This document shows positions 4,491 through 64,000 of a stretch of DNA of 64,000 bases, one piece after another. Numbering within the stretch: position 1 is the first letter of the stretch; the number at the start of each line of letters is the position of its first letter. Source of the DNA: Ceratodon purpureus. Its lineage: Eukaryota > Streptophyta > Bryopsida > Pseudoditrichales > Ditrichaceae. The DNA lies in NCBI GenBank assembly GCA_014871385.1, contig CM026426.1:61232084-61296083 (forward strand), read 5' to 3'. The notes beneath the pieces were generated by a model, which was not told where the DNA came from, searched no databases, and saw nothing but the letters and a program-made list of their open reading frames with translations. The translations under genes and the position numbers were made by a program.

Positions 4491-4491
4491 T

Positions 4492-41859: not shown

Positions 41860-42640
41860 TCCCACTCTCATCCCCCTTTCCCTCTTTATGTTTTACTCAT
41901 CTCCCTTCCCCTCTCCAATGTCCTTGCCCATCTCAGTTTTTTTTTTTTTTTTTTTTTTTTCTTTGTTGATTTTCATTATTTCTCCATCCTTCATCCCCCC
42001 CCCCTCGTACCCCCTCACACTTCCCCTTCTCTCCCCATCTTCCTTCTCTCCTTTTCTCTCCCCCTCCCATCTCTTCCCCTTCTTGAATCTCCACTATCCT
42101 TGCTCTTTTCGGTTTTTGTGTTTTATATTCTTTTTTTTTTTTTATTTTTTTTTTTGGCTTCTTTGCTGATTTTCTCCTTCCCTCGCACCCCCTCACACTT
42201 ACTCTTATCTCCTTTTCTCTCCCCCCTCCCCTCCCTTCCCCCTCTCCACTATCCTTGCTCTTTTTGGCTTTTGTATTTTTTTATTTTTTATTTTTATTTT
42301 TTTTTAAATTTTTTTTTGGCTTCTTTGCTGATTTTCTCCTTCCCTCGCCCCCACTCACACTCACCCTTCTCTCCTTTTCTCTCCCCCCTTCCCTCCCTTC
42401 CCCCTCTCCACTGTCCTTGCTCTTTTCGGCTTTTGTGTTTTGTGTTTTTTTTTTTTTTTTTTTTCTTCTTTGCTGATTTTCTCCTTCCCTCACCCCCCTC
42501 GCACCCCCTCAAACTCACCCTTCTCTCCTTTTCTCTCCCCCCTCCCCTCTCTTTCCCCTCTCCAGTGTCCTTGCCCATCTCAGTATTTGTTTGTTTGTTT
42601 GTTTTTTGTTTGTCACTCTCATTTCCGTAGAAACCTCCTC
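41860..42640. repeat. Inverted copy of the minisatellite (plus-strand pyrimidine)
   Basis: About five units of CTTCTTTGCTGATTTTCTCC, CACTCACCCTTCTCTCC, CCCTTCCCCCTCTCCACTGT and CTTGCTCTTTTCGGCTTTTG, separated by T-runs up to 24. These are the reverse complement of the 37.14-37.53 kb array, about 4.3 kb away. Confidence 0.88.
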
Positions 42641-42900
42641 ACACATCCCCCTTCTCTTCATCCTCCTCCATTTTTGCCAAATGTTGTCGCAGATAGAGAT
42701 TGTGACTGAGAAGCATCAATTTGCCTTTGGAAACGTCTATGTGTTTGCTACGACATAGTAACTCACGTCACGTCAGACAACTCGACAGTGCTCACAGACA
42801 CATCATTGCTTTGTCTTGCGGCTGGTATTTGTTGGGTTATTGGAGCTGATTTTGACATCTCTGCTTATGTTGTGTCTCTGATGGTAGGAGTTCAAGTGCC

Positions 42901-45900
42901 ATGAGCGGAGACGTCCGTCAGCGCGGTGCAAGAATCCGGCATGATGCTCAGGGGCGGACACTGCGTCACATCCCTCTCGATGACCTCATTCTGCAAACAG
43001 AGCTATGAGTGGCAACGACGGAGAAGATAACACAATACCGATGCCCTTGTCGCAACTGTCACGGAGGTCGAAGGAGGCGAATCTCCGTCATCCGAGACCA
43101 CCACGCAGCTGTGGGCACAGACCCCTTCTTGACAAACTCCCTCATTGGCGGCGACCCACCAGAGGGCTATCCACCGGATGGGATCTGGGTGGAAGACATG
43201 GCATACGACGACAATGTCGTTGACGATGCTCCCCAGGTTGGCAACAACGACGTTCTCCCAGACGTCGCTGAAGACGTCCCTGAACTGGATCATGTCGCTA
43301 ATGACGGAACTTTGCTAGATGAGTACCACGATCACTACGGCAAACCAAGGATTCTGGGAGCGAGTGTACTGTCCTCCTGGGGGTGGCACCCCCGGGAGCG
43401 AGGGCTTTCGATGTTCAAGGAGAGAGGGGACCAATCAGGTGTGTCGTTGTGTCCTGGTTTGAGGGGTTTTGCTCCCAGGAGTCGAGAGCAACTTCCAGTT
43501 CAATAGTTTTTACCTTGGCATGATGCCGTGGCCGCACCATGTGCTCTCTCGGGTGATTTACCTCGTCGAGTCTGTAACGAATGCTCTCTGTAAGCTGGAA
43601 TGCTCCCTCTTAGGATTTCTTCCCTTCTATGCAACGGAACGACATTCGATCTACGGATGGTGTTGAATTTTCCACTTCTGACATTTTAGAAGTTTTTTAA
43701 GAGCTCGGTGGAAGGATGCATGTGGCGATCAGGTGTTTATCGTTTGCTTTGTCCAATGTGCAATGATTAGGGTGCTTGTTAGGGTTTTGCTTGCCATTTG
43801 CTGCAGGTGCTGCCTGCGCGACGCAAGAGCACTCCTACCTGATCATTTGCTGGTCGATCATTTGCTTCACACGCAGTGGGAGCGTTTTGTCATCATTGTG
43901 ATTTTTGAGATGGCTTTCACGTCGAGGTGGATTCTGTGGTAGCTAGGGCTTTAATTCAGCAATTGATGTTGGCGGTAGGTAGATGCGAAGAAGTGTTCAC
44001 GTTTGTGCTTAGGGCGCTCGTTTCCAGGATCAATGAGCTAAACGATACGGACTGGAGAATATTGTTTGGTGTTGACACAATTGGCATGTTGGAAACATGT
44101 GGTCTGCCATCGCTTGGAATGTCACTAGGTGATTCTTTTGCCCATGATTTCGCTTTTTTAGTGTTTACTCGCATCCTTGTCCTGAACCATTCGATCATGA
44201 AGGGTTTGTTCAGGATATGTCAATGGTATTTTGACAACAAGCGGCACAATTGAGTGTGTGCACAGCCCCCGTGGATGGTGGGCATGGGCCGTCTGCACCG
44301 TCCCCGAACTACGAGAGTGCACCTCAAATGCAGGTATGGTTCACAATTCCATTGCTGGCTGGTTCACAATTTATGTGTTGGATTATGTTATTTTTAATTT
44401 CTGATTCATGTTCGGAAAATGGTTATATTCAACCAATTTATTGTTTCAGGGATGATAAACATATGAAGCACTTGAAAGCTGCTGCCTTCAAGTAGAGTAT
44501 CGTTGGAAACCCACCGTAAACTTACTGTAGGCAACGGTGGCGACTTCTAGTTCCAATCAGCAGCCAAAGGCAAAAGAGGAAAGAAGTGTGACCTACTTGG
44601 GATGGTTTAATTGTCGACAATACAAACTTGATACATTGACTGGTTAAATAAAACCATTTGCTTCACCACAAGTGGCAAGATGACGAAAAACAGTGAAGGA
44701 GAGAAGTCACTTCCAACTCCCACTTGTCCTCACGACAATGAAACTGCACAATCCAAGAACCATAGATTACAGACGAGAGACCACCACTTGGCAAAGCTGG
44801 ATTAGTAACGGTGCTACGAGGTAAAACTCAGAACAGGTAAAATTATTCGGATTCCGCGGTTACCATGACGAAGGAGAGCAGACTCGGGAGCCTGCTCTCG
44901 GGAGCAAGAGCCCCAGCTCCCCGCCCAACCCCCAGGTGCTGGAGTTTGGCGTAGTGGATGTCAAGAGGCAAGTCATGGAGGCCCTCGGCCGTGGCGATGC
45001 TCTCCATAGGGATGCTGGAGTTGAGCCTAATCTTTTGGCCGAAGATGACCTCGATCATGACAGTGTTGATGGACTGCGGCGTCTCTATGAGCAGGCTACA
45101 ACTGCCCTGTATCGAGGATCAAAGACAAGCGTTGTGTCTGTAACCATTGTCATCATGAACATGTGTGTGGTCTTCGGTGTGAGCAACAGCTTTGCCACGG
45201 AATTGTTGCGCTACTTGGCGGAGGACCTTCTTCCAGCAGGCAATAAGCTTCCAAATAGTCATTATGCTGCTGCAAAGTCAATTCGCAAATTGGGGCTTGA
45301 GTACAACAACATCCATGCATGCCCTGATGGTTGTGTATTATATGAGGGTGAACACGCAGACTTGCACACATGTCCAAAGTGTTCAAAATCCCGGTGGTTA
45401 GAGGGTACTGATTCTATCCCCTCAAAGGTGATCCGCCACTTCCCCCTTATACCCCGCTTGAAACGGATGTGGCGCTCACCAGAGATTGCTAGCATGTTGA
45501 CGGGTCACACGAAGCATGTCAGCGAAGACGGCATCATGCGGTCTGTAGTTGACAGCCCCGCATGGAAACACATCGACCCAGAGGGCGTCTTCGACAACTT
45601 CGGAGCAGACTCACGGAACATGCGTATGGCTTTAGCGACAGATGGTGTCAATCCTTTCAAGTTAAACAACACAAACTGGTCCACGTGGCCAGTGCTCATT
45701 TTGCTATACAATTTGGAGCCATGGTTTGTGACAAAGAAGTTCTTCATTTCGTTGTGCATATTGATCTCAGGGAAGCGATCACCAACTGCAGCAAATATTG
45801 GCGTGTTCATTCGACCATTGTTGAATGAGTTGCATCAGCTCTGGCAAGGTGTCCCAGCACTTGATTTCACTCAGCCCGTAGGGTCTCGACGCTTCAATCT

Positions 45901-47585
45901 CCGAGGTTTGCTCATGTGGACTATCTCAGATTTTCCGGCATATGGGCTCATCTCAGGTTTATGCTGTAAGGGATATAAGGGATGTCCTTCTTGCGGCCTA
46001 GAAACAGATGCTAGATCTGCAAAGACAGGAGATCTGCGTCCAGATTGTACCACTCGTGGCTTGAAGATTGTGTTTGGGGGTACACGTCGTTATCTTCCCC
46101 GTCACCATCCATATCGGCGAAACACGCGGTTCAATGGCAACCGCGAGACACGGACAGCACCTACAATCATGTCAGGATTAGACGTCATTAGGTATGCTGC
46201 GTGGCGGCAGTCATACCTAGACCTTGGTGGCAGGGAAGGAGGCCCAAGTGACCCCGTGCATATCACGAGCGTTAAGCGGCTAAGCGTGTTCTTTGAACTC
46301 CCTTATTGGCAGGTCAGTGGAGAATGACTACTCTACTTGAATGTTTTCCTAAGCACAACAACGTTGTTGCAGACAGTGTTTACATTGTCGCGTTTCCTGT
46401 AGATGTCTTTGTGGACATCAGGATGTCTCAAAGGACGTTTATTTTGACAAGCACTGAAGATGTGCTCACTGTCGACACTGGTTGGCAACATGTAGTCCTT
46501 CTAATGACTTTGGTTGCTAATAAATGAAGTGGACATCTTAAGAGCATCTAAAGATTCAACACGTCCTAGACGTCATGCACTACAAGAAGAACCTATGCGA
46601 GAACATTCTAAAGACTCTCTTTGGAATGAATGATAGTCCTGGGAGTCGCCAAGATGTGGAGGACTTGAACATACGAGAAGAATTATGGTTGCAACCTCCA
46701 CAACGCTGAGGAGACGAGTACTATATGCCGCAAGCCCCATACATCTTGAAGCCCGAGGAGAAGCAAGAATTTGTGAACATAGTGTCCAGTATCCGCACTC
46801 CAACCAACTACGTGGGGGCAATTCACAAACGATTGGCGGATGGGAAATTGCAATACGTGAAGACTCACGACTATTATGTTCTCATGCAACAGGTACGCTA
46901 TTGATTTCTTCACATGTGGAATTCTTGCTGGAGAGAAGTTTGTAGACCAATTCTGTCAAAGACGTATTCCCAAACGTTGTCACGTTTACTGAAGGACATC
47001 CTACAGAACGTTCTTTTGTATGCCTACATAGTGCTATTGAATACGACATTGTAATGTTCCGGTATACATGGTTGATGTTCCTGAGGACATATATAGCAAT
47101 AGGTGGCACACATACGTAGGACTGCTAGGTTTCAATTGTTCCTACTTCTTTCCTTGTAACAGTTTAACATGTGATGTTTCCATGGTGTCCATCTTGTAGA
47201 TACTCCCTGTGGCTATCCGCAACTTGTTGGGCGAAGAGGTGCGCATAGCCATCATCAAGATGTGCCGAGTAATTCAATGTATTTGTGGGAAAGAGGTACG
47301 AGCAGACAGCAGTGACGCGCTCATGCGAGATGTGATCATGGCATCCTGCGTGCTGGAGAAGGAGTTTCCTCCCACATTTTTGAATGTGATGATACATCTC
47401 TCCGTGCATCTTGTGGAGCAATTGTTCATATGTGGGCCAGTCCATTGCAGGTGGATGTATCCAATTGAGAGGTACATGAAGACGCTGAAAGACTATGTTA
47501 GGACACAGGCACATCCAGAAGGGAGTATTCCAGAAGGGTATCGTCTGCAAGACACACTTGGCTTCTGCACAAAGTACATGAAGCG
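42901..47585 (+). pseudogene. CACTA (En/Spm) tnp2 transposase C, N-terminal to DUF4218 part
   Basis: It starts at ATG 42901 (MSGDVRQRGARIRHDAQGR), meets a TGA after LILQTEL, then YRCPCRNCHGG (zinc-like N-terminal motif). After a 1.5-kb interruption the tnp2 core runs 44936-46315: LRYLAEDLLPAGNKLP, LEYNNIHACPDGCVLYEG, LATDGVNPFKLNNTNWSTWP, LLMWTISDFPAYGLISG, YKGCPSCG and RRYLPRHHPYRRNTRFNG. An intron (about 46313-46570) leads to DVMHYKKNLCENILKTLFG with a TGA near 46708. Another (46883-47199) leads to ILPVAIRNLLGEE, MIHLSVHLVEQLFI and MYPIERYMKTLKDYVR (DUF4218). The frame stops at 47585 because a 14.27-kb MULE is inserted after KYMKR; it resumes at 61863. Best preserved of the three tnp2 copies. 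Confidence 0.9.
43362..44935 (+). other. 1.5-kb intron or insertion within tnp2 C
   Basis: It separates DEYHDHYGKPRILG from LEFGVVDVKRQVME. The right border, CCCCCAG before GTGCTGGAG, could be a splice acceptor and GATCAGGTGTGT near 43437 a donor, so it may be a native intron. It contains a 108-residue frame at 43927-44253 of unknown origin. The near-identical GGGAGC words at both ends do not form a clear target duplication. Confidence 0.45.
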
Positions 47586-47640
47586 GACGTAGCTTGTACG
47601 TGAGCGGAGATTTGGAGAGCGGAGAGCACAGAATGAGGGA
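47586..47640 (+). repeat. Left terminal inverted repeat of the MULE
   Basis: Contains GTACGTGAGCGGAGA and GGAGAGCGGAGAGCACAGAA. It pairs with 61792-61851. A further inverted match, GACCCTATAACCGTGG, lies at 47748-47763 with its partner at 61748-61763. Confidence 0.85.
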
Positions 47641-48516
47641 CATAACCTAAAAATAGCACTTTTTTTACTAAAAATAAAACTTAAATTTAGAAGATTCGAA
47701 TATTCTCAGTATATTTTTAGAAAGTTACTTATTTTAGTAATTTAATTGACCCTATAACCGTGGAATAATTACAGTATTTTCATTGAATTTGTAGTTCGTT
47801 TGCTCTTCTCTTGGTGATTAATTTTTGTACGTGCACCAATTACTATGCTCCAGCTCCTTCTAACTTGTTCAGGCATACATTAATTCCCCTTACCTCCTCA
47901 CATTTATATGCAAATTACTCCTTAAAATGTATTGGTATTGAACCTCTTAAGAGGGATCAAGTAACATTCAAAATCGTAACATTTTCTTAACATTGGTAGA
48001 AATCATTCGCCATAGTCTACATGCCTTTCAACTTTTTTATTTTTTTTTATTTTTTATAATTGTCTTCTACTTTTTATTAACTTCCTCTATTTTATCTATC
48101 TTGTTAAAGGGGTCAAAAGAGTCCTTTCATTGAATTTTCTCTTTCATTTTATTTTCTCTTTCATTTTCTTAATTTCCTTCATATTATTTTCAACCTTAAT
48201 ATTTATTTTTACTTTGATTTACTTTTATTTTTTCAAATTCATTTTTTATAAATGTTTTTTTTTTTTTTTTTTCCTATTATAATTTCATTTTTTTTTTTTT
48301 TAATTTTTTAATTTGAAATGGTAAATGACTTCTGCTCAACCCTCATCCTTTTCTATTCAGTTTAGGAGGATGAAAACTTCTAAACGAATGAAAAGCCGAT
48401 TTTCAAGGGCGCCAAGCATCTTCTTCAGGGATATTTAAGATTAGATTATAGAATGTCTCTTCCTCTTTTGTGTTGGTGTTGTGTGAAGCTCTTTTCCGTA
48501 GTGCGGGACATCAGTT
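47641..48516. other. AT-rich left subterminal region of the MULE
   Basis: Many T- and A-runs (47990-48320), no gene. It probably includes the promoter of the ORF at 48517. Confidence 0.6.
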
Positions 48517-48969
48517 ATGGAAGACGTCAAAGATATTGTTGTTTCACTTGCTGATGATGTTTGTCGATTTCAACCATATGTTGAGGTGGAGGACGAAGAA
48601 GAGGTGATGGCCAACAGCCAAGGGCGTCCTTTGACAACGGATGTTGACGTGCAACCGGATGTAAGAACTGACCCTCCACGTTCAGAAAATTCGGATGATA
48701 TCAGAGTGCTAGAGGAGGACGCAGATGTGCCTTTGCAACCTCATGCATACTCTAAGGTTGGAAAGATCCCAAGGGGAACCTATTCCAGGGAATCAGTGAA
48801 TCGGAGGCGGAGAGGTGGGCCATTGCTGAAACGTTCATACCAAGGACACTTGCCAAGTGTGGGAACGAAGGTGAACGCAAATGTAGTTTGTCCTGCAGTA
48901 CAGTCAGAGATTCGCAGCCCTGCTGATAGTGTAGTGGGCAACCCTAAACGTGTTAGGTTCAAAGATTAG
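48517..48969 (+). CDS. Unknown 150-residue MULE-encoded ORF
   Basis: It starts MEDVKDIVVSLADDVC and ends NPKRVRFKD before TAG. The first half is acidic (VEVEDEEEVM) and the second basic (SVNRRRRGGPLLKRSY). It lies inside the MULE next to its left end and converges with the transposase gene. No domain recognised. Confidence 0.5.
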   Translation: MEDVKDIVVSLADDVCRFQPYVEVEDEEEVMANSQGRPLTTDVDVQPDVRTDPPRSENSDDIRVLEEDADVPLQPHAYSKVGKIPRGTYSRESVNRRRRGGPLLKRSYQGHLPSVGTKVNANVVCPAVQSEIRSPADSVVGNPKRVRFKD

Positions 48970-49220
48970 AACATCTAATAACAAGTATATGTTTGCTGTA
49001 ATAAAGAATGCATGTCAGCGGATACGAGGTATATAGTGCACTTGTTCAAGATAGAATGTATTGAAATAGAATGCAATCAATGTGAACGACAAAGCCTTTA
49101 TAATGAAAAAGTCAATACAGCTTCTGTATTGCTGACTTGGTACATGCGATAATAGTAAAATCATTCACTATATGATCAATGGCCATAGTGGAAATGGCAG
49201 TTCTAAAGAAGGAGTGCTAC

Positions 49221-52200
49221 CTACTTCTTCGCCAAGGGGTGACGCAAGATTTCACTCTCTAGGAGTAGCTTGACCTCGTTAAAGCTGAAGGTAGGCGCAT
49301 GGATGAAAAGCTCGGCTTCGGGATCACGGTTGCAGACCTTCAAGAGTATGTAGTAAAGATGCTTACAAAACGTGAACTGAGTCCTGCCTCGGAACGTAGT
49401 CATCGTCTTCTGGAATGCAGGACAAGTGCAACCAGGGTAAGAACTGATGGTAATCTGGTACCGTGTGATGTGTGGAGCGACGCCCGAATCCAATCCAATG
49501 ATGCAATCGTGGCCCGGCTCAGGTATCATGGTGACGGAACGGAGGCGCGCTTTGAGTGACTCGGAGGAGCCCATGGACAGTCGCTGCGCCGGATTGGGAC
49601 GAGTGGCAGTGCGCTTCACCATCTTGCCGTCTCTCTTGCCTGGGTAGCGGTCAGCGTCTGCAGGGACTGGCACCGAGCTGAGATTTGCAGGGGGCGGGGC
49701 AGAGGAGAAGAGGCGTCTTGAGGAGACCGGTTCTTCGGCGGAAGTTGAAAGCCTGCTGCTTCGAGGGCAAAAATCTCAGTGAGTTTTAGGTTAGTACCTA
49801 GTTTCACTGGCCAGACCTCTGGAATGGAGGGGAATTCCTGGTCCTTTGAGTAGAGTGCTACCCTGTTGCGCTTAGAGCCTTTCACGCAGCGCTCAATATC
49901 GTCGGAGCAGAAGAAAATCTCTGCCTTCTCAACTGTGTTCCTGCGGTTGTTAGTCCAAAGCCCAGTGTAGGTCGGGGCAGCTGTGCAATGGGGCCCCCTG
50001 ACGATTCTCTCAGTGCACTTCTTTCTCGTTTCAGCTCTTTGGGCCCAGCAGCACTTCGAAGAAAGTTTGTGAAGTCTCGAAATGTGCCACTCCTTCACGT
50101 CGACCTTCGTTTCTTCAACCGCGTTGACATGGCGAATGCCGCCCTTGTTCACGGGTGAAGGTAAAGGAGAATCAACTTCTGGGGCAGGAGATTGGGTACC
50201 TTCTACCTCGGTGTCGTGTTCGGAGTCGTCTTCGTCAATGACGGGCATCTACATAGGGCGAGCCCTGACGGCACGTGTTGGGCCTCTTGGGCGCGAGAAG
50301 TTTGTCTTGTCTGGGCAATGAGACTCCTCGTCAGCTCTGATGGGGACGTCGGCTTTTCGCTTCTGTGAACTGAAGACTTCCGCTCCAGGCATGATAGGCT
50401 GACGAGTGCAGAACTCATCCGCGCCTGGCATATCGAGCATGGGGTCTTCGAGCAGTGTAGGATTTCCCCATTTCTTCGCGTTGCGTTCCGCCATTCGGAG
50501 CCTGAGTTCGTTCTTGGACGGTCCTGTTCCGCCGACGTCTCCCTTGAGGAACTGGTAGTAGTTAACAACCTGTAGAAAAGCGCGAACGAAATCGTCCACG
50601 GTAGCAACGTAGAGGTCGTTCCCGTTGTTTCTTGAAGCTTGGAGCCACTTGTTGTGAACTGTTTCGGCGGGGTTACAGGTCGGCATCTCTGTGAGTTCTT
50701 CTTCCGTGAATTTCTGCAGTTTTGACAGTAGATGCCGTTAGATTCACTGATTAGAGTTTTGTAGGTTAGGGCTAGGAAACTAGTATCAAAAACCTCAAAA
50801 CAAAATGCAGAAATCGTACCGTGGTCATGAATCCCCCCCACTGGCGGAAGCGGTGGTGCCAGAATGACAGCCACTGATCGAGTTTGATGAGTCCGCTCTC
50901 GCCAACGACCCCGGTGGATGCCCACCAGGCTCGCAACGCGTGATAAAGAGTTTCCGCCTCTGCCATGCTGGTCGCATTCTTGTACAGAGTGCACATCTTC
51001 TTGTGCTGTTCCCAGAGTTCTTAGGGAAAGTGCTTCTGCGTATACGCCACCATGTTCTGAGTCCAGTGGAACAAGCACGACCTCTCCCGGTCCTCCATTG
51101 GGTCCTCTTTGTTGCCATTGCCGTAAAGGATTCGCACTGCATTCCAATTCGCCTGTGCGGTATCTGCCATGAACCCCTTGAAGTTCGGCGCTGCAAGGCC
51201 ATTGATCTCCATGACCAGGTTCAGGTTTTTCCAGAAGACGAGCTGGGCCTCCATGTCCTCAGAGTGCATGTCGCAAGTGGCGATTGTCATCACGCGGCAG
51301 TAGGTGGCGTCGTACACATGGCACGCCATGGTCGACCAGTCTTTGACGCGTTTGACATGGTCGAACATGATCCATGCGTTCTCCAAGTCGCCACCAGCTT
51401 GCATACGGCTGACCAAGTCGACACCACTTCCCGGCCCAACCTCCGACATCTTGAAGACGAAGACTTTGTCACGCATAGATCCCTGACCAGGAAACCTATT
51501 GTCCTGGACATACGCCCCAAGACTGTTTCCACGGAGCTTGGTGATACCGTTCATGATTCCGTACCTTCTGTGTTTTTTGAAGGTGGCGACCTTGTTGGGG
51601 ATGTTTGGTGACGCCATGTCTTTGCAGCGATCCAGAACAGGAACCAGCTCCTCCATCGTCAGCTTCCTCGGTGGTGCATCCTCAGGCTCTAGCAGGTAGC
51701 TCCCGATGAGGAGTTTGCTCGCCTCCAAGACAATGGCGCTCTTCATTGCTTTGTTGTTCATCTCTACATGCTCTTCTATTAAGCTACTAATCTCTGCTTT
51801 AGAGTCTCTGTAGTCTCCAACTTTCATTGGATGATCATGTGTTCCTATGTGGATACAAGCTCTAGTGTGATTTGCTTTGCCCACTACGTAATAAATCTTA
51901 GCCTCGCATGTAGCTACACATGATGGAGGTTCTTTACATACCTTGCACACCAGCGTGGAGTCAGATGGAGGAGGCTGATCCATGAGAAAAGCTTGTAGGG
52001 TACACCCTTCGAACTCAGTCTCGTTAACCTCGAAGATCTTGGGAACACGCTTCAGGAACTCACACTCCTTGTTGCTGTAGCGCAGCCATCCGACGCAGGT
52101 GGAACTTCGAAAAGACAGTCCGAAGTCGTTTTTGATGTTTGTTGTGATGGTCTTAGTCCACAAGTGTCCGTCGTATCGTTTGTCCATTCCCTGCATTGAC

Positions 52201-52978
52201 TTGGCGGCGAGCTTAGAGGGACGTGCAGCAGCTCGGGGCAACTCAAAAAGAACCGAACCATCAAACTTCGGAGGCAAGTACTCCACTCTCTCGTGTCTAA
52301 TAGTGGAATAGTCTATCTTCTTTAGAATGTTTTTTGACCCACGCGCCTTTGCAAGCTGTTGAAGGAGGGGGACAATGCTAACTGTGACCTGGGACAATGG
52401 AGGAGACACATTGGAAGGAGGAGCATCAACGTGGACCTTAGGCACGAACTTGAAGGGACTGACTTCGTCATCTAAAGAGAGAGATATGACGGACGGAGGA
52501 GGAGGTTTCTCTACGTCTGAAGTCTCGGTACCAGGCTCGACTTTGACCTTGACATCACGAGGTAAGGGAGTCTGAATTGTACAAGAAGAAGAGCGACGGG
52601 GGTGAGGATCTCAGTGGATGCAGCCATCAGAGAATCAGTAAGACCATAGACTCTATAGGATCCACGGAAGAGTCTCCACTGCAACATATTATTCTCATCA
52701 CTCATTGAAGGTTGCCCGAGGGTGTGGATAACCTCCGCAGTAATGTCATCAAAGATCTCCTTCTCTATATTGATTGAATCCTCACGGAAATGGAATCTGA
52801 GACTCAGGCGAAGAGAGGAAACTGTAGCTAGACCATCGTCATCTACGCGAAACCTAAGAGGGATGCCCATGCCTTGGGCGTACGGACAGACCATCCTCAT
52901 ATTCGTAGGCAACTCAGAGATACTAGAGGAAGGAGGGAGAAGAGGGAGTGTACTAGCGAAGCAATATCGCGAGAGCAA
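49221..52978 (-). pseudogene. MULE transposase with C-terminal SWIM zinc finger
   Basis: N-terminal exon 52978-52605 (MRMVCPYAQGMGIPLRFRV). Main block 52590-51021: a Cys-rich piece (VCKVCKEPPSCVATC) followed by the MULE DDE region, with WSTMACHVYDATYCRVMTI (first Asp in DATY), FKGFMADTAQANWNAVR (second Asp) and RERSCLFHWTQNM (C-x2-H), the spacing of Mutator transposases. It continues at 51020-50822 (LYHALRAWW) and, after an intron, at 50713-49760. SWIM finger at 49673-49221: YPGCTCPAF...FTFCKHLYYILLK. Damage: TAA after QKHFP (51018), TAG near 50250, and frame changes near 52605 and 49700. It would cut and rejoin element ends; this copy is probably inactive. Confidence 0.82.
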
Positions 52979-53459
52979 AGTGAGAGGAATGATGCATTGC
53001 TGTTGATCATTTTATTCTAGTTGGAATGTCCATGTGGACTACTAGGTAATGATTCATTCTGTTGGGTAACGAATGTATGATTAAAGAGAGACAGCGCTAA
53101 CTAATTAGAATGTTGCTTTTTTCAGGCCCAAGTTAACAGGGTAGGAGTTTTTAGAACTATGCATTTAATATATGAATCGTGGTACCGATTCTATTCGATG
53201 TGCAGTTTGGTGAGATTAGAGTGAGCCGTCAGTTGGTTCCATATTTAATATATGTATTTTAATGCTTAATTCAAATCTTTTAATATTTTGTGGGCTTGGT
53301 ATATTGTCTTCCAATATAGATTGATCTCTTCAGCTTTAATTCAAAATGCATTTATTTATAGTTTAAATTAATTTAAGTAGGTTTAGAATAGGGCTGAGTC
53401 AGAGGAGTTGAAGGTTTGGGATATATAGGAGGAAGGGAAGTTAGAAGGAGAGCTATATA
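52979..53459. promoter_or_regulatory. Divergent promoter region of transposase and ParB-methyltransferase genes
   Basis: A 480-bp AT-rich gap between the two head-to-head genes. ATATATAGGAGG near 53422 precedes the plus-strand gene and may act as its TATA box. Shared regulation is inferred from the layout. Confidence 0.45.
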
Positions 53460-54654
53460 GTGAGGAGAGTTCTCTCGTTAGTTAGACACATGAAGGAGAG
53501 TGGAGGGTCAGCTCCCTCCACTTATGTCACTCCTAAACCTAGAAGAAAGGCATATGTTACAGATTTTACGAACAGGAGAGCGAGGAAGAGGAGAGAATTA
53601 CGTAGGAAGTCCAAGTCGAAAGGCAACCTCTTGAGTGCACCTCTGAAGGTTCGAGGAGCTCGGCTGCCTGTGGCAATTAAATTTTGTAGCATCCGTAAAC
53701 TCATTCTAGAGTCCATAGTAGAGGTGAAAGATGAGGTTTTAGAGGACATATCAGTTGAGCATCAGGAGCATGAGGTAATACATAGCGGAGAAAAACACCT
53801 AGAGATGACGGAAGAGCTAGGGTTCAATTCCAGTCCGACTTTGGAGACACCACAACCTTCTTTCGGATTCAAGGAGGGACGGATTCACAGTCGGGCGACC
53901 ATTCTAACACGGATGTGGTAAGTTTTATAATTGATACATTGTAATATGCTAATTGTAAATAATGAATTTTTGAGAGTTACATTCATTTCTATGTAATGTC
54001 GTCGCGTTTAATTTTTTACTGTTTAGAGTTATGATGCCGCATCAAAGCGAGTGGTTGTTTAGAATAAGAGATCCGAAGTATTAATACTCGTCATAGTCTT
54101 AAATATTTGTGCTGATTGTTGATTGGTTTAGGATTGATCAAGAGGTTGTAGAGGAAAAGACGCCAGAAGTGGATGCAAGCAAGGAGTCAGATCCTGAGAC
54201 ATTGATAAGAGTGGCTCGTAGAGGAAGGCGAGAAATTATGGAGGCGGGCGAAGGTGGGGAAGCAATAGCTCCAAGACGAGCGGGACGAGGGGACCCCGGA
54301 AGTCCATCGCAGAGGAGTCTGGACGAAGTCCAATCGCAGGGTAGAATGGCGGGGCCCGTTAACGACAACGACTATGAAGAGGTTGAGGTTGTGAATCGAG
54401 GGAGAGGGATAGGTGGTCCAAAGACAGGGAGAGGTCAAGGTAGTCGAGGGAGGAGTAGAGGTGAGGGCACTTCTGAACTCAAACTTGCGGCATTGGAAGT
54501 GGAGGCATCTGTTCGGAACATGGATGGGCGTGGAGAGGACCGCGCGGAGCAGGAGATGGAGAGCGCGGGCGGTGAGACAGACCGAGGTACGGCCACAGAG
54601 GAGGTAAGTAATCGGACTTGGGCTTTTGTAGATGTGGGTTTGGTGAATGTTGTA

Positions 54655-54965
54655 GGATTTGAGGTCGCGGATTCAGACTTTGCACTATGAAGGAAAGCAA
54701 TGTGTGAGTTAGGGGTTGCAAATCCCTCTGCATCCATGGTTGCGAAGTGCGAGGTTGGGGATTCGGAGCCTGCAGAAGATGGGTCCGCGAGGTTTGAGGT
54801 GGAGATTACGGATCTTACTGCGGCCACAGCCGCAAGGTGCGAGGTGGAGAACCCTGACCCTGCAGCAGTCAGGGCCGTGATGTGCGAGGTGGGGGATGCA
54901 GATTTTACTGCAGCCATAGCCGCAAGGATTGAGGTGGAGAATGCGCAAGGCACGGCTGCGAAGTC
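54655..54965 (+). repeat. Seven tandem 15-16-residue repeats
   Basis: Consecutive units such as FEVADSDFAL, CEVGDSEPAEDGSAR, FEVEITDLTAATAAR, CEVENPDPAAVRAV and CEVGDADFTAAIAAR, from a roughly 45-48 bp DNA repeat, within the N-terminal region of the ParB-methyltransferase-like protein. A longer pair, GKEGAARNQAMA, repeats at about 55025 and 55142. Confidence 0.8.
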
Positions 54966-56186
54966 CAAGCAGGAGGACGCGGATACTGTTGTTGAGTGGG
55001 CCGCGGGGTACGTGGGCAAGGCGGGGAAGGAGGGGGCCGCGAGGAACCAAGCCATGGCCGCGGAGGAGAGGACGCGGACAGAGGCGCATTCGGCACCGAA
55101 TGCCACCCACAAGGAGGGGGAAGACTTTGGAAGAGCTGTGGGGAAGGAGGGGGCCGCGAGGAACCAAGCCATGGCCGTGAAGGAGAGGAGCCTCCCCATG
55201 AGGCATTCGGTGACGAATGCCACTCAAGAGGAGGGGGCATATTTGACTACAACTCTTGCTTTTTTATTGTTATATGATGTTTTTTTTCTCAATTGTTATA
55301 ATTCGTATATCTTATGTGTTGTAGGAGTTCACGGATCAACTTACTGCGACTGAAGCTGATGGCCTAACTCCTGCAGAAACTGAGGTAATTTAATCATATT
55401 TGCTTTTTGTAATAAACATGGCATTGTAGATTAATTTATCTTAAGTAGTATTGTAAACTAAAATGGTTAATTGACATTGTCTTTGTCTCTATGCTTGTAG
55501 GTATTCTCAGATGCACCCTTGTCCATCAGTTCTCCGATCACAGTGATCAATGTTTCCGACCTCTCGGATTCATTTGATCAGCCCCATTTATGTAGGTGTG
55601 ATTTAGGAAACCCTATAGGTTTAGATAGTGGACTTCCTCGCCGGTAGAGTCATGTACATTTCCATATACAACCACGAAGAGAAGACAGCCGATGTCACTG
55701 AGGAGACCAAGGCTGAGTGGAGCCCTTGTTGGCAAAAAGCAAATGATGCTTTCGAGGATGAGCTCTTGGCCGACTCGGATTGGAAGGAGTTTTCTGGGAA
55801 GATGTTCTATGTCTGGGAAGGTAACCATCGCCTTGCCGCCTGGTACAGACATATCAACAACCATCACAGCGAAGATCCTGCGTGGCACATCTCTGTGCAC
55901 TGCATAGTTCTCGACCCACGCGGACATGTGGGAAACCTTCTTCATGCCATGCACGACATCAATTGGTAAGAATATGAAACCCCTCTATTTTGGCCAGACG
56001 TCTTGATGTTCATGCATTTTACTAACTACCGTCTATTCGTGTAGGTCTACAGAAAATGATCATGTAAAGAGCAATCTTCCGGCTAAACTTTTCCAAATTC
56101 GCTCCTTCGGTGTGATGAAATTGGAGGAATTCAAGGATTTGCTCACAGCAGAGGAGTATCAATTATCTTTGAATCATAAACCATCT

Positions 56187-56314
56187 ACTCCATCTTGGTT
56201 TACCTTGCCAACCAAAGTCTTCATCGCGTTTCTTTATTGTGTAAGCACTTACTCCATCTTGGTTTACCTTGCCAACAAAAGTCTTCATCGCGTTTCTTTA
56301 TCGTGTAAGCACTT
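56187..56314 (+). repeat. 64-bp exact-length tandem duplication spanning a splice donor
   Basis: 56187-56250 and 56251-56314 are near-identical (two changes). Each contains ACTCCATCTTGGTTTACC and ends with GTGTAAGCACTT, so the GTAAGC donor at 56241 is duplicated. Confidence 0.88.
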
Positions 56315-59300
56315 GATCCATCCTTTGTCACACTTCCATTCGACAATTGATTTTTGTTTGTCTGTGTACTAAAAAGGGGGATAACTATGTTTTCCAGAGA
56401 GAAATCGTGGCGGCCTGAGACGAAGCTGCAAGAATCTACAAGGAGAAAACAGCCATTGAAGACCAAACCGCAGTAGGTGTTTGAGATGCCATGACTGCGG
56501 CTATAAACAACATGGTCGAATCCATTAAGAAGAAGGACTTCACCAAGTACTTGACAATTGCAAATCCCAAGAACGGTGACGACTTCCTCAATGAGGTGAT
56601 ACCCTTACCGTGGTTGACTTAAATATTTCTTTTCACTACTTTATATTTGTATTCATATTTCCTAAATCTTCTCTACTTGTTGCAGATTAATCGGCATTAC
56701 AGTGACAACTCTAAATCTAAGATGTCACTCGATAAGCTTCAGAAGGTTGTTCCAGCGGCCATTGAGGCCAAGTACAAGGCTCGTTGCTTGAGGTGGTGGA
56801 ACTCATCTCTGAGATCCCGAAAGTCTTACAGATTTCTGCCAGCTGAATTCAAGGACACCGATTTCGACCCATGGTTGAACAAAGCTTTATTCTGGGTCGG
56901 GGTAAGTTTCATTCATGAACCGTTCCAATGACTTGATCCTTTCTTCTGCCCCTCATTTCTTTCTCACTACTACTGATATGTATTTTGTATATTAGTTGGA
57001 GGAAGCCGTCATCAACGAAGTCGAGGACATATGCAAGGCGGAGAACCTCGTTATCAATTGGAAGGCATTTCCTGATGTACAAGAGCCGGGCGATTATGTC
57101 GAGAGTTCATGTATTCTGTTATGGGACAAGGCCTTCCCTACATTCGTTGGAAAGAAGGCTGAGAAGGTGTTCGACAAGAAGTCCAACTTCGCTAAATTCC
57201 CTGGAACCGCTGAGGTTGTCAAGCGGGTTACTTACTGGTAAGTTACTTTGCTTTGTTAGATTCAAATTCCATAATGAGCTCTACATATCTTTCTCATACT
57301 AACCTTCTCCATATTGGTTTCCTTAGGTACTTTAAGCGAGAGCTTGTTCTGAAGGGGGCACTTAAAGTTCAGCAACTGCCTAAGTTCTTTAGTGCTTGGA
57401 CGTCGAGAACCTCGGACCAGTGTATGTACTCTCCCAAACAGCTGAAAAGGTACAAAACTCCTCACTTGCTTGAAGGATGCTGGTATCTTGATTGCTCTTG
57501 TGGTTTCACGATTGACTCAGAGGCGGACGTCAAGACTCTACACGATGGGGGTGAGGTTGTGGTGGAGGACTCCGTGGATGATGCAGAAGGTCGTGAAGGA
57601 GAGCAGGATCACTCTTCTGCTCCACCACCGAAGAGAGGGAGAAGAAGGCGACTAAAATCTCTGCGTTCTCAGTCAGAGGCATCACAGCAAACTGGTGCGG
57701 AGTCTTCCGCGCCAGCTGAGAAGGCACCAGAGCCCTCTCCGGGTATTGTCGTTACAAAGCCTTCTCCAACTTCTTCGCCGGCTCCTTCCTCGATCAATGC
57801 TTCCGAGGTCACTAGAGGTCTCCTTGAGCAAAGGAAGGCCAAGCAGTTTCCACAGACTACTTCTTCCGCTCCAACTCCGCTATCCACACAGGTTTATGTC
57901 ATCAACTCCTCTGTGGATTCAGTTATGCTTCGACAGAAAGAGCTCTGAGACATGGGTGGCGATCACGAATGGAACAAGGCTCTAGACATCGTTAGAAAGG
58001 TATGATCCGTTGCGTACTGTTTTTTCTTCAATACATACATTACTGTAAATCTTATATAGTCTAACTCTGCTTTCATGGTTCCTCTAGTTTGGAGCAGGCC
58101 GCCAAAACGGAGTTTCTGATCGTTGCAAACAGCAGAATCACTTGGGATTCGACTTGATCATTGCCGACATCCTTGAGAATCTTCTCGTTCCTTCGGTGTC
58201 CGATCCCCCCGACGTCATTCCACCTTGGAACACTCGTGACAAGGATTATGTGTGGAACATCTTCGAATTTGCTAGACACTATTTGCAGTACGATGATGCT
58301 CTTTGCATAATCCACAACAACGACCAAGACGTGGTAGCGCATATTTCTGTACAGGCTAAGCACAATTCTTTTGTGCAGTACCGAGACTGGTGGTGCTTCA
58401 ATGCACTAGGCTTGGCTCACCCTACAATCCCCGGCTCCTTGGTATGTACATCATAGACATTCCTTAAACTTTCTTAATATTTACACTTTCTTAATTTTGC
58501 ATTGTGCTAAACTTTCTTAATATTTACACTCACATGTTTTGGTGTCTCGCAGTCTCTTCGGTTCTGGGTGTGCGCCTTCATCCGTGGTGGCAATCCCCCA
58601 TCGAAGTTTTCCTTTCAAACGAAGAAATCCGATGTCGTATACAGCGACCTCCACATTACCGAGAGTGATGCCATTCTCAACTTCACCGATTTTGAATCGC
58701 AGCACATGAATGGGGACGTACCGTGGAGAGGGCTAAGGGAGAAAGCCCATGAGATGATGCAAACCATAATTGAAGAGATGTCCAAGCCCGGAGACATAGT
58801 CTTTGAGTGGATGGCTGCAACAAGTAATCTTATATAAACTTTCTCTGTATTTCCGTTCCTATGATTTTCTCCAGAGTCTTAATTTTTATACTTGTGCTAT
58901 ATGTTTCAGGGGCCTCCATCAAGGCTTGCCAGAGTATTGGTCGTCATATTATAGCTTGTGAGGAGGACGAAGCCATATTCAACGCCCTTCTCAATCCGTA
59001 TATGGCTACGTCATCCGCCATGGGCCCTCCTAAACATCCTAGACCGGCCGCAGTTGAAGAAGCACCTCCAAAGAGACCACGACAAGATAAGTATTGTAAG
59101 TTCTACTTCACATTTTCTAGCTTCAGCGCTCATTCTCTTTGCTTCTTTACTGATTCACTCTTCACCCACTCGTTCTTACCATTATCAATTTTCTCTTGCA
59201 GAGTAGTTGCGGCAACACCGTCACGTAGGCCAACACCCGTGTGTATTCCATCGTGGCATCTTCATTCCAGCCCAATTCAGTCTTATGTACTTCCGGACTA

Positions 59301-59408
59301 TGCAGAGGGCTTAGCACATGCGCTTGAATCAAAGCACTTAGATATGTTCCTAGTCGCCCCACTAGTTTTGATCCCAGGGCCCTACTATTTGTCGATGACG
59401 AGGCTGTA

Positions 59409-59819
59409 GAAGGAGATTCTGAGTCATCGGGTTCTGAGAGTGGAAGTAGCGATTGTAGCATCTTCTCAGTTTGAAAGAGGCCTCGGTCTATCATTGTTTT
59501 CATTTGATTTCATTTCATTTCAGTGGAGTTGATTACATACTCCATCGTCTACTCTATTGCAAACCACTTAAAGTATTCATGATTCTCATTTCCAGTTTAT
59601 ACTCGTGTATGTAAAGGTCTACAATTGCAAGTCTTTTTAGCTCTCAATTCTCATATGCTTGAAGGGAAAACCACTTCAGTGATGAAGTTATTTTAGTCTG
59701 CAAATTCTATTTAGAACACTAGACAGTACTAACATGACCAACTACAATGCTCAAAATATATAGAGTACTCTAATTTTTTCCTTTATCAATGAACAAAATC
59801 TCACATTTCCATAGCCATG
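59409..59819. other. Convergent intergenic gap in the MULE
   Basis: Between the 3' ends of the methyltransferase-like gene and the F-box-like gene. AT-rich, no gene. Confidence 0.55.
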
Positions 59820-60344
59820 TTACCTATTCTTGGGAGAGATCCAGATACCATCTCTCGGAGAAATTTTCTCTCCTTCCGGCACATCCAAGACCTCATTCCC
59901 ATTGACCCATAGCAATGTCCTCAACTGATCTAACTCAACGCAACTAAGTTCTCCAAGGGATGCTGTCTCTAACCTCTCGTTGTAAATTGGAGTTGCAAGT
60001 TTCCAAGAACTCCTAAAAACACTCGAGTTGATGTTGAACCGATTAACTTCGTATTCATCCTTCGAACTCCAATGGCGACCCTCGTACGAAAAGTAATCCC
60101 ACCTCGCTAGCCGAAGGCATGCGTATTCAGGACTGCTGTCAATCTCACGGTTCCACCTCTTCGACACAGCACGAGCGTTCTCGACATCTTCAAACGTGAT
60201 TACCGTCGCAGGAGTCCAACCCTGCGTGGCACTACTACCTATATGATCCCAAGGGTTAGGCCCATCCGCCATCCGCTTAAGCAAATCCTGTAAAACCGTT
60301 TCACAGGCAACGACCTCAAATGAATCTCCCATACCTTCAAACAA
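59820..60344 (-). CDS. F-box-like protein 1 carried by the MULE
   Basis: An intact 174-residue frame starting MFEGMGDSFEVVACE. The pattern ITFEDVENARAVSKRWNREI is reminiscent of the F-box helices that dock to SKP1 in SCF ubiquitin ligases, followed by SPEYACLRLARWDY and LSCVELDQLRTLLW. It is related to the frame at 20810-21292 and its upstream DNA is similar to that of the gene at 60708. The F-box call is weak; no substrate-binding repeats are seen. It lies near the right end of the MULE, opposite in direction to the methyltransferase gene. Confidence 0.5.
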   Translation of the reverse strand: MFEGMGDSFEVVACETVLQDLLKRMADGPNPWDHIGSSATQGWTPATVITFEDVENARAVSKRWNREIDSSPEYACLRLARWDYFSYEGRHWSSKDEYEVNRFNINSSVFRSSWKLATPIYNERLETASLGELSCVELDQLRTLLWVNGNEVLDVPEGEKISPRDGIWISPKNR

Positions 60345-60707
60345 CTCCCTAGCAAGTACACGCTTAAGTTCTACAGAAATGATTGAGCTTATACAACTTC
60401 AAGGACGTCTCCTAAGGCTTATATAGATTCTTGCTTGACACTCAAGCTAGGAATGGTCTTATCTAAAGACGGAGAATTCTTCGACGAAGACAAGCAGTCT
60501 GACTTGGTGTACAGATTGGTTTCTGCTACTCCATTATTGTACACGAACTCCGAAATATTCCACGAACTTTTAAGACCATTTCTTTTTGGTGGTTTCGAGT
60601 TCTCTTATTCCTATAATTATCTATATTATCTAAAAACATCATGCTAGAATACTCGTATCTAGATCCAATAAGGGACCAAATCTAAGGGAATGTATTCAAA
60701 CACCCCA
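60345..60707. repeat. Upstream region of F-box-like gene 1, duplicated at 61.32-61.47 kb
   Basis: 60460-60590 and 61350-61470 share GAAGACAAG, TTGGTTTC, CACGAACTCCGAAATATTCC (ACAAATCTTGAAATATTCC in the second copy) in the same order, so the two minus-strand genes look like a tandem duplication including their 5' flanks. Confidence 0.65.
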
Positions 60708-61094
60708 CTAGTTTTTACAGTAATAATCCTTCGGAGGATATATAGTCCAACTCTTGTCGATATCAAACCAGCAAGTTTTGCCATCCGATATGATCACTTC
60801 GGGCAGCTGAACAACTGGATTCTCATCGACGTTCGAAAGCAAGGGATACGGGATTAGGGACAACTCCATAATACGGAGAAGCTCATTGGTACAAAGCACT
60901 GTCCAACGCCATTCACCTTCACCAACATGGAGGCTTCCAATGTGCCTAAATGGTGGCAGGTCCATGCCTCGTTCCCTGGCGCGCTCCACCTCCAGCAGCC
61001 AGGGCCGCAGCTCCTGATAACTCGCCGGTGCCTTTCGGGCCAAACCTACAGCCGCTCTCGTCCTCCTCGATCTCGCATTACGCACCTTCGGCAT
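60708..61094 (-). CDS. F-box-like or associated protein 2 carried by the MULE
   Basis: A 128-residue frame, MPKVRNARSRRTRAAVGLAR at the N-terminus, then WLLEVERARERGMDLPPFRH, VLCTNELLRIMELSLIP and WFDIDKSWTIYPP. It lies directly upstream of F-box-like gene 1 in the same direction and shares its 5' flank. Protein similarity between the two is not obvious, so the F-box relation rests on the shared flank. Confidence 0.42.
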   Translation of the reverse strand: MPKVRNARSRRTRAAVGLARKAPASYQELRPWLLEVERARERGMDLPPFRHIGSLHVGEGEWRWTVLCTNELLRIMELSLIPYPLLSNVDENPVVQLPEVIISDGKTCWFDIDKSWTIYPPKDYYCKN

Positions 61095-61791
61095 CGCGCA
61101 ACACAGTAAATTGTTGTAGTCTTAAAACGTTCCATGCAAGCTTGCAGATTGACCCTCCTGAATTCGTACGCTACCTTCGCATACAGAGAGGAATGCCAAG
61201 GACTGTGTCACTATCCAAATACGCCACCTAGAAACAAGCTCAAGAAACCAAGAGTGACCGCCTTCTGTGGAACCCAGCTTACCAAGAGCTGTTTCATGAT
61301 GAGAATCTCTTACTTGTATCACTCAAATGAAGAAGCTTCGCTGCCTAAGAAGAGAGAGTAATCTTCGATGAAGACAAGGACTCTAACAAGGTATATCTTG
61401 GTTTCAGCAGTTAAGATATTATACACAAATCTTGAAATATTCCAGGAAGTTTTCAAACCTTGCCTCCTTTATGTTCTATGAAAGTTATTTTTTTTCCTTG
61501 TGCATTTACATAATCCTATGAAAGAATTATTTGTTTGATCTAAAACTTAACGCCTGATCATTGTATCTTGCCTAAACCCATGACAAATCTTACAAAATAT
61601 ATGCATGACGTCATCATGACATTAGCCCTAATTTGTATCTTAGAGAACAAACGTAATAAATTCTTAGCAGAGATAACCCTGATTTCCACGGTAATATACT
61701 CTTTTCCTAATAAAAGTGTCAAAATCAAGCCTTAATTTAGTAATTTCCCACGGTTATAGGGTCTACTTTGCTTTTGAAAATTTGGCTACTT
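61095..61791. other. Right subterminal region of the MULE
   Basis: No gene. It contains the flank duplicate at 61350-61470 and CCACGGTTATAGGGTC (61748-61763), which is inverted relative to 47748-47763. Confidence 0.6.
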
Positions 61792-61851
61792 GTCATTTCT
61801 GTGCTCTCCGCTCTCCGCTCTACGCTCTCCGCTCACATACGAACTTTCCCC
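61792..61851 (-). repeat. Right terminal inverted repeat of the MULE
   Basis: TTTCTGTGCTCTCCGCTCTCC ... TCTCCGCTCACATAC, the complement of the left end with a short internal expansion of GCTCTCC units. It is followed directly by TACATGAAGCG. Confidence 0.85.
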
Positions 61852-63080
61852 TACATGAAGCGACATTGCGCAACAACGCACCGTGTTTGGGACCCCGCAG
61901 AAGATGCCACCATGAATGATGAGATCTTGCGTGATAATGAAAACAGCAAGCACAAATTGTCTGATGAGGTACGGGGCTATGCACATGCCTTCGTCATCGA
62001 CAACGCTCCGTGCTTAGAACCATGGCGAGAGTGAGCCCCGAAACCTATGGCCCACCCATCTAAGACGCCTCCAGAAATCAGTAGTAGTTCAGAACCGTGT
62101 TCAGGGCAGTGATTCAGTGAAATGTGTAGACGTTTGCATGTCCCCTAAAATGTCTTTTATAACATCTTCCATAACATCGTCTTGTTTTTTTTTTTTAAAT
62201 TGGAATATGTCAATACAGACGTCATTAGCAACACCGCACCAAACTGTTAGATGTCCTCTTGGGCGTCAAATTTAACAAACATGTAGTTAGATGTGTTATT
62301 TCTATTCATGCCGCTGTGTCATTGTTTGACAGCGGTGTTTGGTCTTGTTTACAGGGAGTATATGGCTGCAAAGGGACGTTGTTGGGAGGAGCGTGAGGCA
62401 TTTCAAGTACAGTCAAGACGCCATCGTCCTTCGAGACCAGTCTCGTATCCACCCGAGCTGTCAGATCTGCCTCGTTTTTCAGAATGGCTGAGAGCACGGG
62501 TGGCAGAAGCTCAAGCAGCCGGTGATGAACTGCAGGAAGAAGTGGTACAGTACTCCTCCCCCCTAGAGAGGTATGCTACCCCCCATCGGCTACTCAAGGC
62601 ATTTGGAATGCGCTTGCGCCCTCGCACAGCAGAGGGAGGACTTGTCACTCGAGACTCGTGTGTAGTTGCAGCATATACGCAGCAACTTCGTTGGGGGATT
62701 CGCAACGGGAGGCCCATTGACCGCACCTCCGAGTATGTTGGGTATATCGAGGAGATTCTCGAATTGGATTACCGCAATCACTGCACCACAGTGCTGCTTC
62801 GTGATTGGGTTAAAGCCTCCCGTGATGCGCGCGTCCCCAGCGTTGAACTTGACAAGTACGGATTTAGCGTGGCGAACTTCAACCACATAGACGGCAGAGT
62901 GCACGCGGACTCTTTTGCGTTTCCGTTGCATTGTCAACAAGTCATTTTTGTTGATGACCCCACGAGCAGGGTTGTTCAAATAGACGTCCGACCCGGCTCC
63001 GGACGTCAAGACGTCCGACCCGGACGTCCCCCGTCCCGGACGTGGCGTCCCCGACGCTTGAGAATTACGTCGCGGTAATA
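61852..63080 (+). pseudogene. tnp2 transposase C, C-terminal part (DUF4216 region)
   Basis: After the target duplication the frame reads KRHCATTHRVWDPAEDATMND, continuing the tnp2 gene cut at 47585. It then runs HAFVIDNAPCLEPWRE, an intron (about 62031-62351, GTGAGC...TTACAG) and EYMAAKGRCWEEREAF, LVTRDSCVVAAYTQQLRWG, TSEYVGYIEEILELDY, VANFNHIDGRVHADSFAFPL and CQQVIFVDDPTSR. This is the DUF4216 pattern found at the C-terminus of plant CACTA transposases. After about 62975 the sequence becomes GC-rich repeats, so the end of the protein may be disrupted or is unusual. Confidence 0.88.
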
Positions 63081-63840
63081 ATTTTGCGACCCCGGAGGGG
63101 TAAAAACATTCCCCAGCCGTCCGATCGGCCGATCCCGCCACCACGCCCCATCTCGGCCGTCCGTTCGCGGGGACAGCCGCGGAGACGGCCGCGGGGTCGT
63201 TGGGGACGGCCGCACGTCGATCCGACGGCCAAGATGCGGCCGTGCTGGCACATCGCGGGACGTCGGATGTGGGCGGCCCTACTGGGCCGTCGGATCCCAC
63301 GGCCGTCGCCGTGGCCGACCGCGGGGACGGCCGCGGGATCCGACGGCCCGGATCGACCCCGGCGCAGGCCATCGGGGACCGGTCGATCGGCGCGGCCGAC
63401 CGCGGGCCATCCGATCCCGCCGCCGTCCCGTGGCCGTCCCCGCGGTCGGCAACGGCGACGGCCGCGGGATCGGACGGCCCGCGGCAGCCATGGTCGGCCT
63501 AGGTGGGCCGTCCGATCGGGCGGCCGTCTCCGCGGTCGGCCGCGGAGACGGCCACTGGATCGGACGGCCCTCCCAGGCCGACCATGGCGGCCGCGGAGGG
63601 CCGTCCGATCCCGCGGCCGTCCGCGTGGGCGACCGCGGGAAGACACGGCCGTCCGCATGGCCGACCGCGTGGAGACGCGGCCGACCGCGGAGACGGCCGC
63701 ATCGGTCGGACGGCCACGCGGCGCCATCGCTTGACGTGGCCGTCCGATCGGACGGCCGGCGCCTTCGGGCGGAGTCGCGCCTGATCGGACGGCCGCGGGG
63801 GCGTAGATCGGACGGCCGCGGGGACGGCCGCGAGGTCGGC
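62975..63840. repeat. Extremely GC-rich CGGACGGCC repeat block
   Basis: It begins with GACGTCCGACCCGG words and then shuffles GGCCGTCCGATCG, GGGACGGCCGCGG and their complements for about 750 bp, with countless short inverted repeats. Long open frames on both strands are by-products of the composition and are not annotated. Confidence 0.88.
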
Positions 63841-63861
63841 TTCCCCTATATAAGGGGAAGC
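63841..63861 (+). promoter_or_regulatory. Candidate core promoter: TATATAA in a CTTCCCC/GGGGAAG dyad
   Basis: TATATAA at 63847-63853 is centred between CTTCCCC and GGGGAAG, right after the GC-rich block. This suggests the block is the upstream part of an LTR or promoter transcribed rightward; the transcribed part lies at the window edge. Confidence 0.5.
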
Positions 63862-64000
63862 CGCCTCTTCATTTTTTACCTTTTTTCTCCCTTTTCGAGT
63901 GAGGCTGATTGCTACAGGTGGGGGATTCGATCCTTCTCCGTTGGTCGTTCTCACCGGGAGGAAAGGGGTCCTTCATTTGATGGGGGGGGACTTTTCGAAA
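63862..64000. other. Window edge, no gene
   Basis: CT-rich leader-like sequence after the TATA box, then a G-run (GGGGGGGG near 63984). Nothing codable. Confidence 0.5.

Follow-up and report, generated by a model that had tools for sequence, protein, structure and literature searches.

In published work on Ectocarpus, the accessory gene of the transposon Sola1-1_Ec32 is described as encoding a ParB domain together with a DNA methyltransferase, and similar proteins are described from transposons of green and red algae (PMC12477816). Here we report a predicted cargo gene of this kind from the moss Ceratodon purpureus, in a 64,000-nucleotide stretch of contig CM026426.1 (assembly GCA_014871385.1, positions 61,232,084 to 61,296,083 of the forward strand; hereafter the window, to which all coordinates refer). 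The gene lies in a transposon of 14,266 base pairs (bp) that resembles Mutator-like elements (MULEs). Its predicted product joins a ParB/sulfiredoxin-like region to a C-terminal domain related to bacterial-type N6/N4 DNA methyltransferases, and the catalytic letters of that family are missing at the aligned places. As far as the published description of the Ectocarpus cargo goes, both proteins are large (1104 amino acids there, about 1,240 residues here) and have the same two named domains, and both genes lie opposite the transposase strand of a large DNA transposon; the carrier there is Sola1 (PMC12477816), whereas here it is MULE-like, and the present protein has relatives in ferns. The degenerate catalytic letters are a feature of the present family, the algal cargo being compared by its description only (PMC12477816).

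Other described systems resemble this locus in part. The VANC proteins of Arabidopsis VANDAL MULEs are likewise products of MULE accessory genes, with a proposed role in the epigenetic control of their own element; the abstracts of the two reports mention no methyltransferase domain (PMC5735166, PMC10398659), and the likeness drawn here is one of role. The TET/JBP cargo of fungal transposons and the SET genes of oomycete MuDR elements are, as described, also DNA- or chromatin-modification genes on DNA transposons, in the latter case with MuDR carriers, but they encode dioxygenases or histone methyltransferases and belong to fungi and oomycetes (PMC12730594). DNA methyltransferases are also reported as cargo of dinoflagellate and charophyte retrotransposons, one host thus being a charophyte, although those are C5 enzymes and their carriers are retrotransposons (PMC5890265). 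A bacterial ParB-adenine methylase protein shows the same joining of domains; it differs in its bacterial host and in a ParB domain reported as a nonspecific nickase. Because transposon cargo combining ParB with a methyltransferase is described for algae, the kind of cargo is already known; the present case differs in its carrier, in having relatives in ferns and in its degenerate motifs. The listings from our open-access literature searches showed no report of such cargo in a MULE or in ferns.

A MULE-like element within a tnp2 gene

We identified a single element that houses both a transposase gene and the cargo gene. Its boundaries and the transposase are as follows.

47586-61851, unstranded: whole MULE-like element, 14,266 bp, in a gene for a tnp2 (CACTA-type) transposase
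47575-47585, unstranded: left 11-bp target-site duplication, TACATGAAGCG
61852-61862, unstranded: right copy of the duplication, adjoining the right end of the element
47586-47640, plus strand: left imperfect terminal inverted repeat, with one GAGCGGAGAGC unit
61797-61851, minus strand: right imperfect terminal inverted repeat, with four GAGCGGA-type units
49221-53011, minus strand: broken MULE-like transposase gene, with a DDE-like core and a C-terminal SWIM-like zinc finger

The single element within a tnp2 gene is well supported by its inverted ends, by the 11-bp duplication and by the resumption of the tnp2 reading frame. The window has only two occurrences of TACATGAAGCG, starting at 47575 and at 61852, immediately outside the element ends; in a chance control, an 11-bp match within 15 bases arose in 4 of 20,000 random position-pair draws. 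The inverted repeats pair 47577-47633 with 61797-61857, and a local alignment of one end with the other reaches a score of 70, where 200 single-base shuffles of the right end gave 42 at most. The open reading frame (ORF) upstream of the element is tnp2 (PF02992, E 7.9e-60). When the flanks are joined, this frame carries on across the element, and the DUF4218 match becomes slightly longer (116.4 bits, compared with 115.5 for the left part alone). These observations bear out the initial annotation, made from the sequence, which had placed the cargo in one transposon with a divergent MULE-like transposase; the inverted ends, the duplication and the second copy of the cargo gene (below) are additions to that annotation.

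The interrupted tnp2 (CACTA-type) gene occupies 44825-47592 and 61852-62034 on the plus strand, on either side of the 14.3-kb element.

The transposase gene is divergent from the cargo gene, on the opposite strand, and in-frame stops interrupt its ORFs. These minus-strand ORFs contain a CxC...CxH finger and a DDE-like core that we take to be of the MULE kind. The SWIM family (PF04434) matches the transposase with E 0.097, and a trimmed piece of it with E 0.0071, both below the Pfam cut-off. MULE target-site duplications are given as 8-11 bp (PMC6446971); the element has an 11-bp duplication and imperfect terminal inverted repeats. Given the duplication length and the domain architecture, the transposase probably belongs to the MULE class. 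Against this stands the Pfam scan of the transposase, which returned no MULE match; the earlier MULE assignment agrees with the duplication and the inverted ends and gained no backing from the family search. A tblastn search detected no second transposase in the window, and a contig scan with transposase patterns returned no stretch.

The cargo gene

The gene is a predicted model in which splice sites were picked by hand so as to preserve the reading frame. It comprises 14 exons on the plus strand (53490-59207, with the ATG at 53490), joined through 13 GT-AG introns in a single frame.

53490-53917, plus strand: exon 1, basic N terminus
54132-54603, plus strand: exon 2, low-complexity
55325-55384, plus strand: exon 3
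55501-55591, plus strand: exon 4, start of the ParB-like region
55629-55965, plus strand: exon 5, with SGKMFYVWEGNHRLAAW; EGNHRLAAW at 55817-55843
56045-57999, plus strand: exons 6-10, middle region, which aligns to the fern proteins and to the second copy (56045-56240, 56398-56595, 56686-56901, 56996-57237, 57327-57999)
58088-58441, plus strand: exon 11, methyltransferase-like domain with the aligned motif IV place; DILE at 58166-58177 (canonically DPPY), DPPD at 58202-58213
58553-58823, plus strand: exon 12, methyltransferase-like domain with motif X and the first part of motif I by profile matches; EWMAAT at 58805-58822
58910-59095, plus strand: exon 13, remainder of motif I, then motif II (ASIKACQSIGRHIIACEED), by profile matches
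59202-59207, plus strand: exon 14, stop codon

As a gene model, the cargo gene is real. The many introns described at first are there, with a count of 13 where about 15 had been given, and the span once drawn as 53460-59408 becomes 53490-59207, an end at 59408 being reached only with a different splice choice. The EGNHRLAAW box is present as annotated, as is a motif IV-like stretch ahead of a motif I-like one (GDIVFEWMAAT, then ASIKACQSIGRH and EED).

In-frame TGA codons occur at residues 535, 557 and 954 of the product. The first may be intronic, since the second copy (below) has a stop at the matching place followed by a possible acceptor, and we count two or three; this copy of the gene is therefore probably dead. 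Tandem duplications at 54747-54941 and 55023-55237 fall in the 721-base intron of the gene. In another, at 56186-56322 (64-bp period), an exon end was copied together with its splice donor.

Second copy and fern relatives

The window contains a further, diverged copy of the cargo gene.

500-3573 (about), minus strand: second, broken copy of the cargo gene, with the middle region and the methyltransferase-like domain (best piece E 1.6e-15, outermost piece E 0.007)

A weak match (E 5.4) would extend it to 3742. No ParB-like exon of this copy is found among the matches listed. This copy lacks the intron that the main copy has at 57238-57326.

A protein-database search with the window query returned one fern protein, P0001, among 7,990 scored. 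Starting from P0001, there were four matches including the query among 7,995, that is, three more Adiantum proteins. P0001 contains the ParB-like box, the middle region and the motif IV place; P0002 is without the ParB-like box, and P0003 is without the ParB-like region and has the middle region and both methyltransferase motifs. P0001 and P0003 are 68% identical across 72% of the query stretch. Queried on its own, the ParB-like region gave 0 of 109; that search proved insensitive, as even P0001 was missed. The bacterial acquisition proposed at first gained no backing from the donor search: confirmed relatives numbered 0 of 47, 0 of 60 and 0 of 86 candidate stretches in viral_contigs and 0 of 49 in genome_contigs.

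A domain related to DNA methyltransferases

Several searches indicate, above chance, that the C-terminal domain of the predicted product is homologous to bacterial-type N6/N4 DNA methyltransferases. In PHROGs, the window copy matches phrog_3008 (E 1e-7) and phrog_6952 (E 2.8e-7), and the second copy matches phrog_8769 (E 0.0016), phrog_3008 (E 0.0028) and phrog_67 (E 0.0055), the last across residues 48-274, from motif IV to motif I. A tblastn search of phages matched 169 of 50,697 records at E up to 10 (best E 2e-4); among the 20 of the 169 listed, 16 bear a methylase or methyltransferase annotation and the other 4 bear none. Compared by hhalign with six phage methylases, the domain aligns with probability 94 (E 1.2e-7, 77 columns), or 88 (E 2.9e-6, 56 columns) with fern pieces added; the ParB-like region, used as a control, gives 0.1 (E 0.46). 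The profile search of PDB listed four sequences (E 0.015 to 0.68), each of them named as a DNA methylase. PF01555 matches the joined cargo protein with E 0.0044 and the domain alone with E 0.00091; the bit scores of the window copy, 17.4 and 19.7, do not reach the curated cut-off of 26.7, and two of the four family members match in the PF01555 scan. NCBIfam gave weak matches only, of CcrM type (E 0.084 and 0.039). The N4/N6 methylase descent read from the motifs thus finds support in PHROGs, phage tblastn and hhalign.

Three observations limit this assignment. The strong matches are confined to motifs X, I and II, the last part of the domain. Support for the place of motif IV comes from phrog_67 in the second copy and from the alignment; motif I lies at the domain end as in PF01555 (positions 165-217 of 221), and the order relative to motif IV depends on the same two sources. 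Finally, the fern proteins P0001-P0004 alone match no methylase family (P0001 was searched in Pfam, PHROGs and NCBIfam), and for this reason their methyltransferase reading depends on the alignment with the window.

Catalytic and cofactor-binding motifs

In beta-class N6/N4 methyltransferases, DPP[YFW] is the catalytic motif and FxGxG binds S-adenosylmethionine. At the aligned motif IV place, the five readable sequences, the two window copies and three Adiantum proteins, have DILE (window), DVPE (second copy), DFPI (P0001), DFPT (P0002) and DFPT (P0003), none of them DPPY. The three sequences that reach motif I read MAATR, TASTG and GCSTA, and FxGxG is found in none. By comparison, the phage references have DPPY in six of six cases and FxGxG in five of six. 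We therefore class the domain as derived from this family and not as an active member of it. Regarding the methylase layout described in the initial annotation, the ancestry holds and the two motifs are lacking at the aligned places.

Other details weaken this picture. One phage reference, P0010, itself departs from FxGxG. The window copy has a DPPD 12 residues past the aligned motif IV place, which neither the second copy nor the ferns have. Part of the departures may also be decay, as neither window copy is intact and the fern sequences are predictions from a database. That separate lineages show the same departures, in turn, favours an old change.

The ParB-like region

The stretch SGKMFYVWEGNH in exon 5 is identical in the window and in P0001; the next residue is arginine in the window and histidine in the fern protein (GNHR vs GNHH). 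When scored with a profile of ten viral GNHRLAA proteins, the window region came out on top (E 1.8e-5), followed by P0001 (E 0.013); the 392 window ORFs and 500 shuffles all scored lower. The motif, helped by the published algal description, makes a ParB/sulfiredoxin-like domain plausible.

Several results limit this reading. Besides the GNHH of P0001, searches of Pfam, PHROGs, NCBIfam and PDB matched the region to nothing of the ParB kind, and tblastn in phages and plasmids and the collection scans gave nothing relevant for ParB. The viral profile aligns only over the motif by which its references were picked, and the match is gone when the motif is masked. The Pfam miss tells little, since Pfam matches one of the ten viral proteins, below cut-off, and misses the other nine. 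Structure predictions, the kind of check suggested with the initial annotation, made for P0003 and P0001 from shallow alignments (mean predicted local distance difference test scores of 39 and 34) are too poor for a judgement of the fold. Of the ParB-methylase fusion first described, the methylase part is thus upheld by profile searches, and the ParB part is seen as a motif that those searches did not recover.

Other features of the window

The element contains three further ORFs, and other sequences lie around it.

48517-48969, plus strand: small ORF in the element, 150 amino acids, with no Pfam family
59820-61121, minus strand: two more ORFs in the element (59820-60398 and 60708-61121), the first with an F-box hint only (E 0.094, below cut-off)

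Direct repeats at 60466-60577 and 61350-61459, 70% identical, lie near these minus-strand ORFs. Elsewhere in the window, a tnp2-like fragment, judged by eye from its likeness to the first tnp2, lies at 7031-7993 on the minus strand, and a long ORF at 4336-5385 on the plus strand presumably resembles retrotransposon gag. Two stretches, at 62958-63972 and 41756-42758, are low in complexity, one being G+C-rich with 12- to 93-bp repeats and one pyrimidine-rich with long open frames. Rfam gave no match within the window.

Possible roles of the cargo protein

We propose that a MULE-like DNA transposon bears a large accessory gene, encoded opposite to the transposase, and that the product would combine a ParB/sulfiredoxin-like region with a domain whose ancestor was an N6/N4 DNA methyltransferase of bacterial type. 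Intact copies would encode a DNA-binding protein that recognizes its own element and controls the chromatin state of that element, as is proposed for the VANC anti-silencing proteins of VANDAL MULEs. The methyltransferase fold would then act as a scaffold for binding, with no part in the ordinary methylation of adenine or cytosine. We give this explanation, a MULE-like carrier with a non-catalytic, DNA-binding accessory protein for the control of its own chromatin, about even odds.

The main alternative is that intact copies encode a working methyltransferase, of N6-adenine or N4-cytosine type, which the ParB-like region would target and which would mark the DNA of its own element, the odd motifs being due to divergence or decay. 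The homology is clear in motifs X, I and II, and the phrog_67 match in the second copy runs from motif IV to motif I. The motif IV aspartate and a later P-x-W-N are invariant in the four-sequence alignment, and the proline two residues after the aspartate is kept in three of four sequences (four of five in the larger alignment). The Ectocarpus relative is described as a predicted maker of N4-methylcytosine or N6-methyladenine (PMC12477816), and for the algal retrotransposon cytosine methyltransferases, tested in yeast, a section heading of the report states a capacity for de novo methylation (PMC5890265). The canonical motifs of the phage references, however, are absent here, and the departures are common to the two window copies and the ferns. 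As no relative read retains the catalytic letters, we prefer a binding role and consider methylation rather unlikely; the element marking by DNA methylation suggested at the outset is correspondingly weakened by the five sequences at motif IV and the three at motif I.

A further explanation is that the gene is a passenger, of host or foreign origin, taken up by a MULE in the manner of a Pack-MULE and without a role in the element. Gene acquisition by MULEs is described as frequent (PMC6446971), the cargo copy has in-frame stops, and tblastn in the window detected no second transposase beside the second copy. Yet the second copy, only 27-28% identical to the main one, has retained the middle and methyltransferase-like regions, arranged as in the main copy, and ferns carry relatives, which we read as long-term selection on the cargo protein. 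Moreover, a second transposon superfamily, Sola1, is reported to carry this pairing (PMC12477816). We regard a passenger as improbable. It is very improbable that the exons come from separate, unrelated transcripts or from a chance joining of ORFs: the model is predicted from sequence with hand-picked splice sites and no single fern protein has both the ParB-like box and motif I, but 13 GT-AG introns keep one frame, and P0001 and P0003 overlap widely and jointly span the whole order.

Implications

If the binding role is correct, the ParB-methyltransferase type of cargo reported for algae would extend to a MULE-like element with fern relatives and a seemingly lost active site. More tentatively, and with some doubt, these proteins may represent a long-lived plant family of transposon-encoded pseudo-methyltransferases, in which a ParB-like clamp and a fold without methylation chemistry would shield the element against silencing, either through binding to the element ends or by obstructing the host methylation machinery, in parallel to VANC. 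The question would then become a testable one: whether such cargo proteins write DNA methylation on their own elements or act as anti-silencing factors by binding only.

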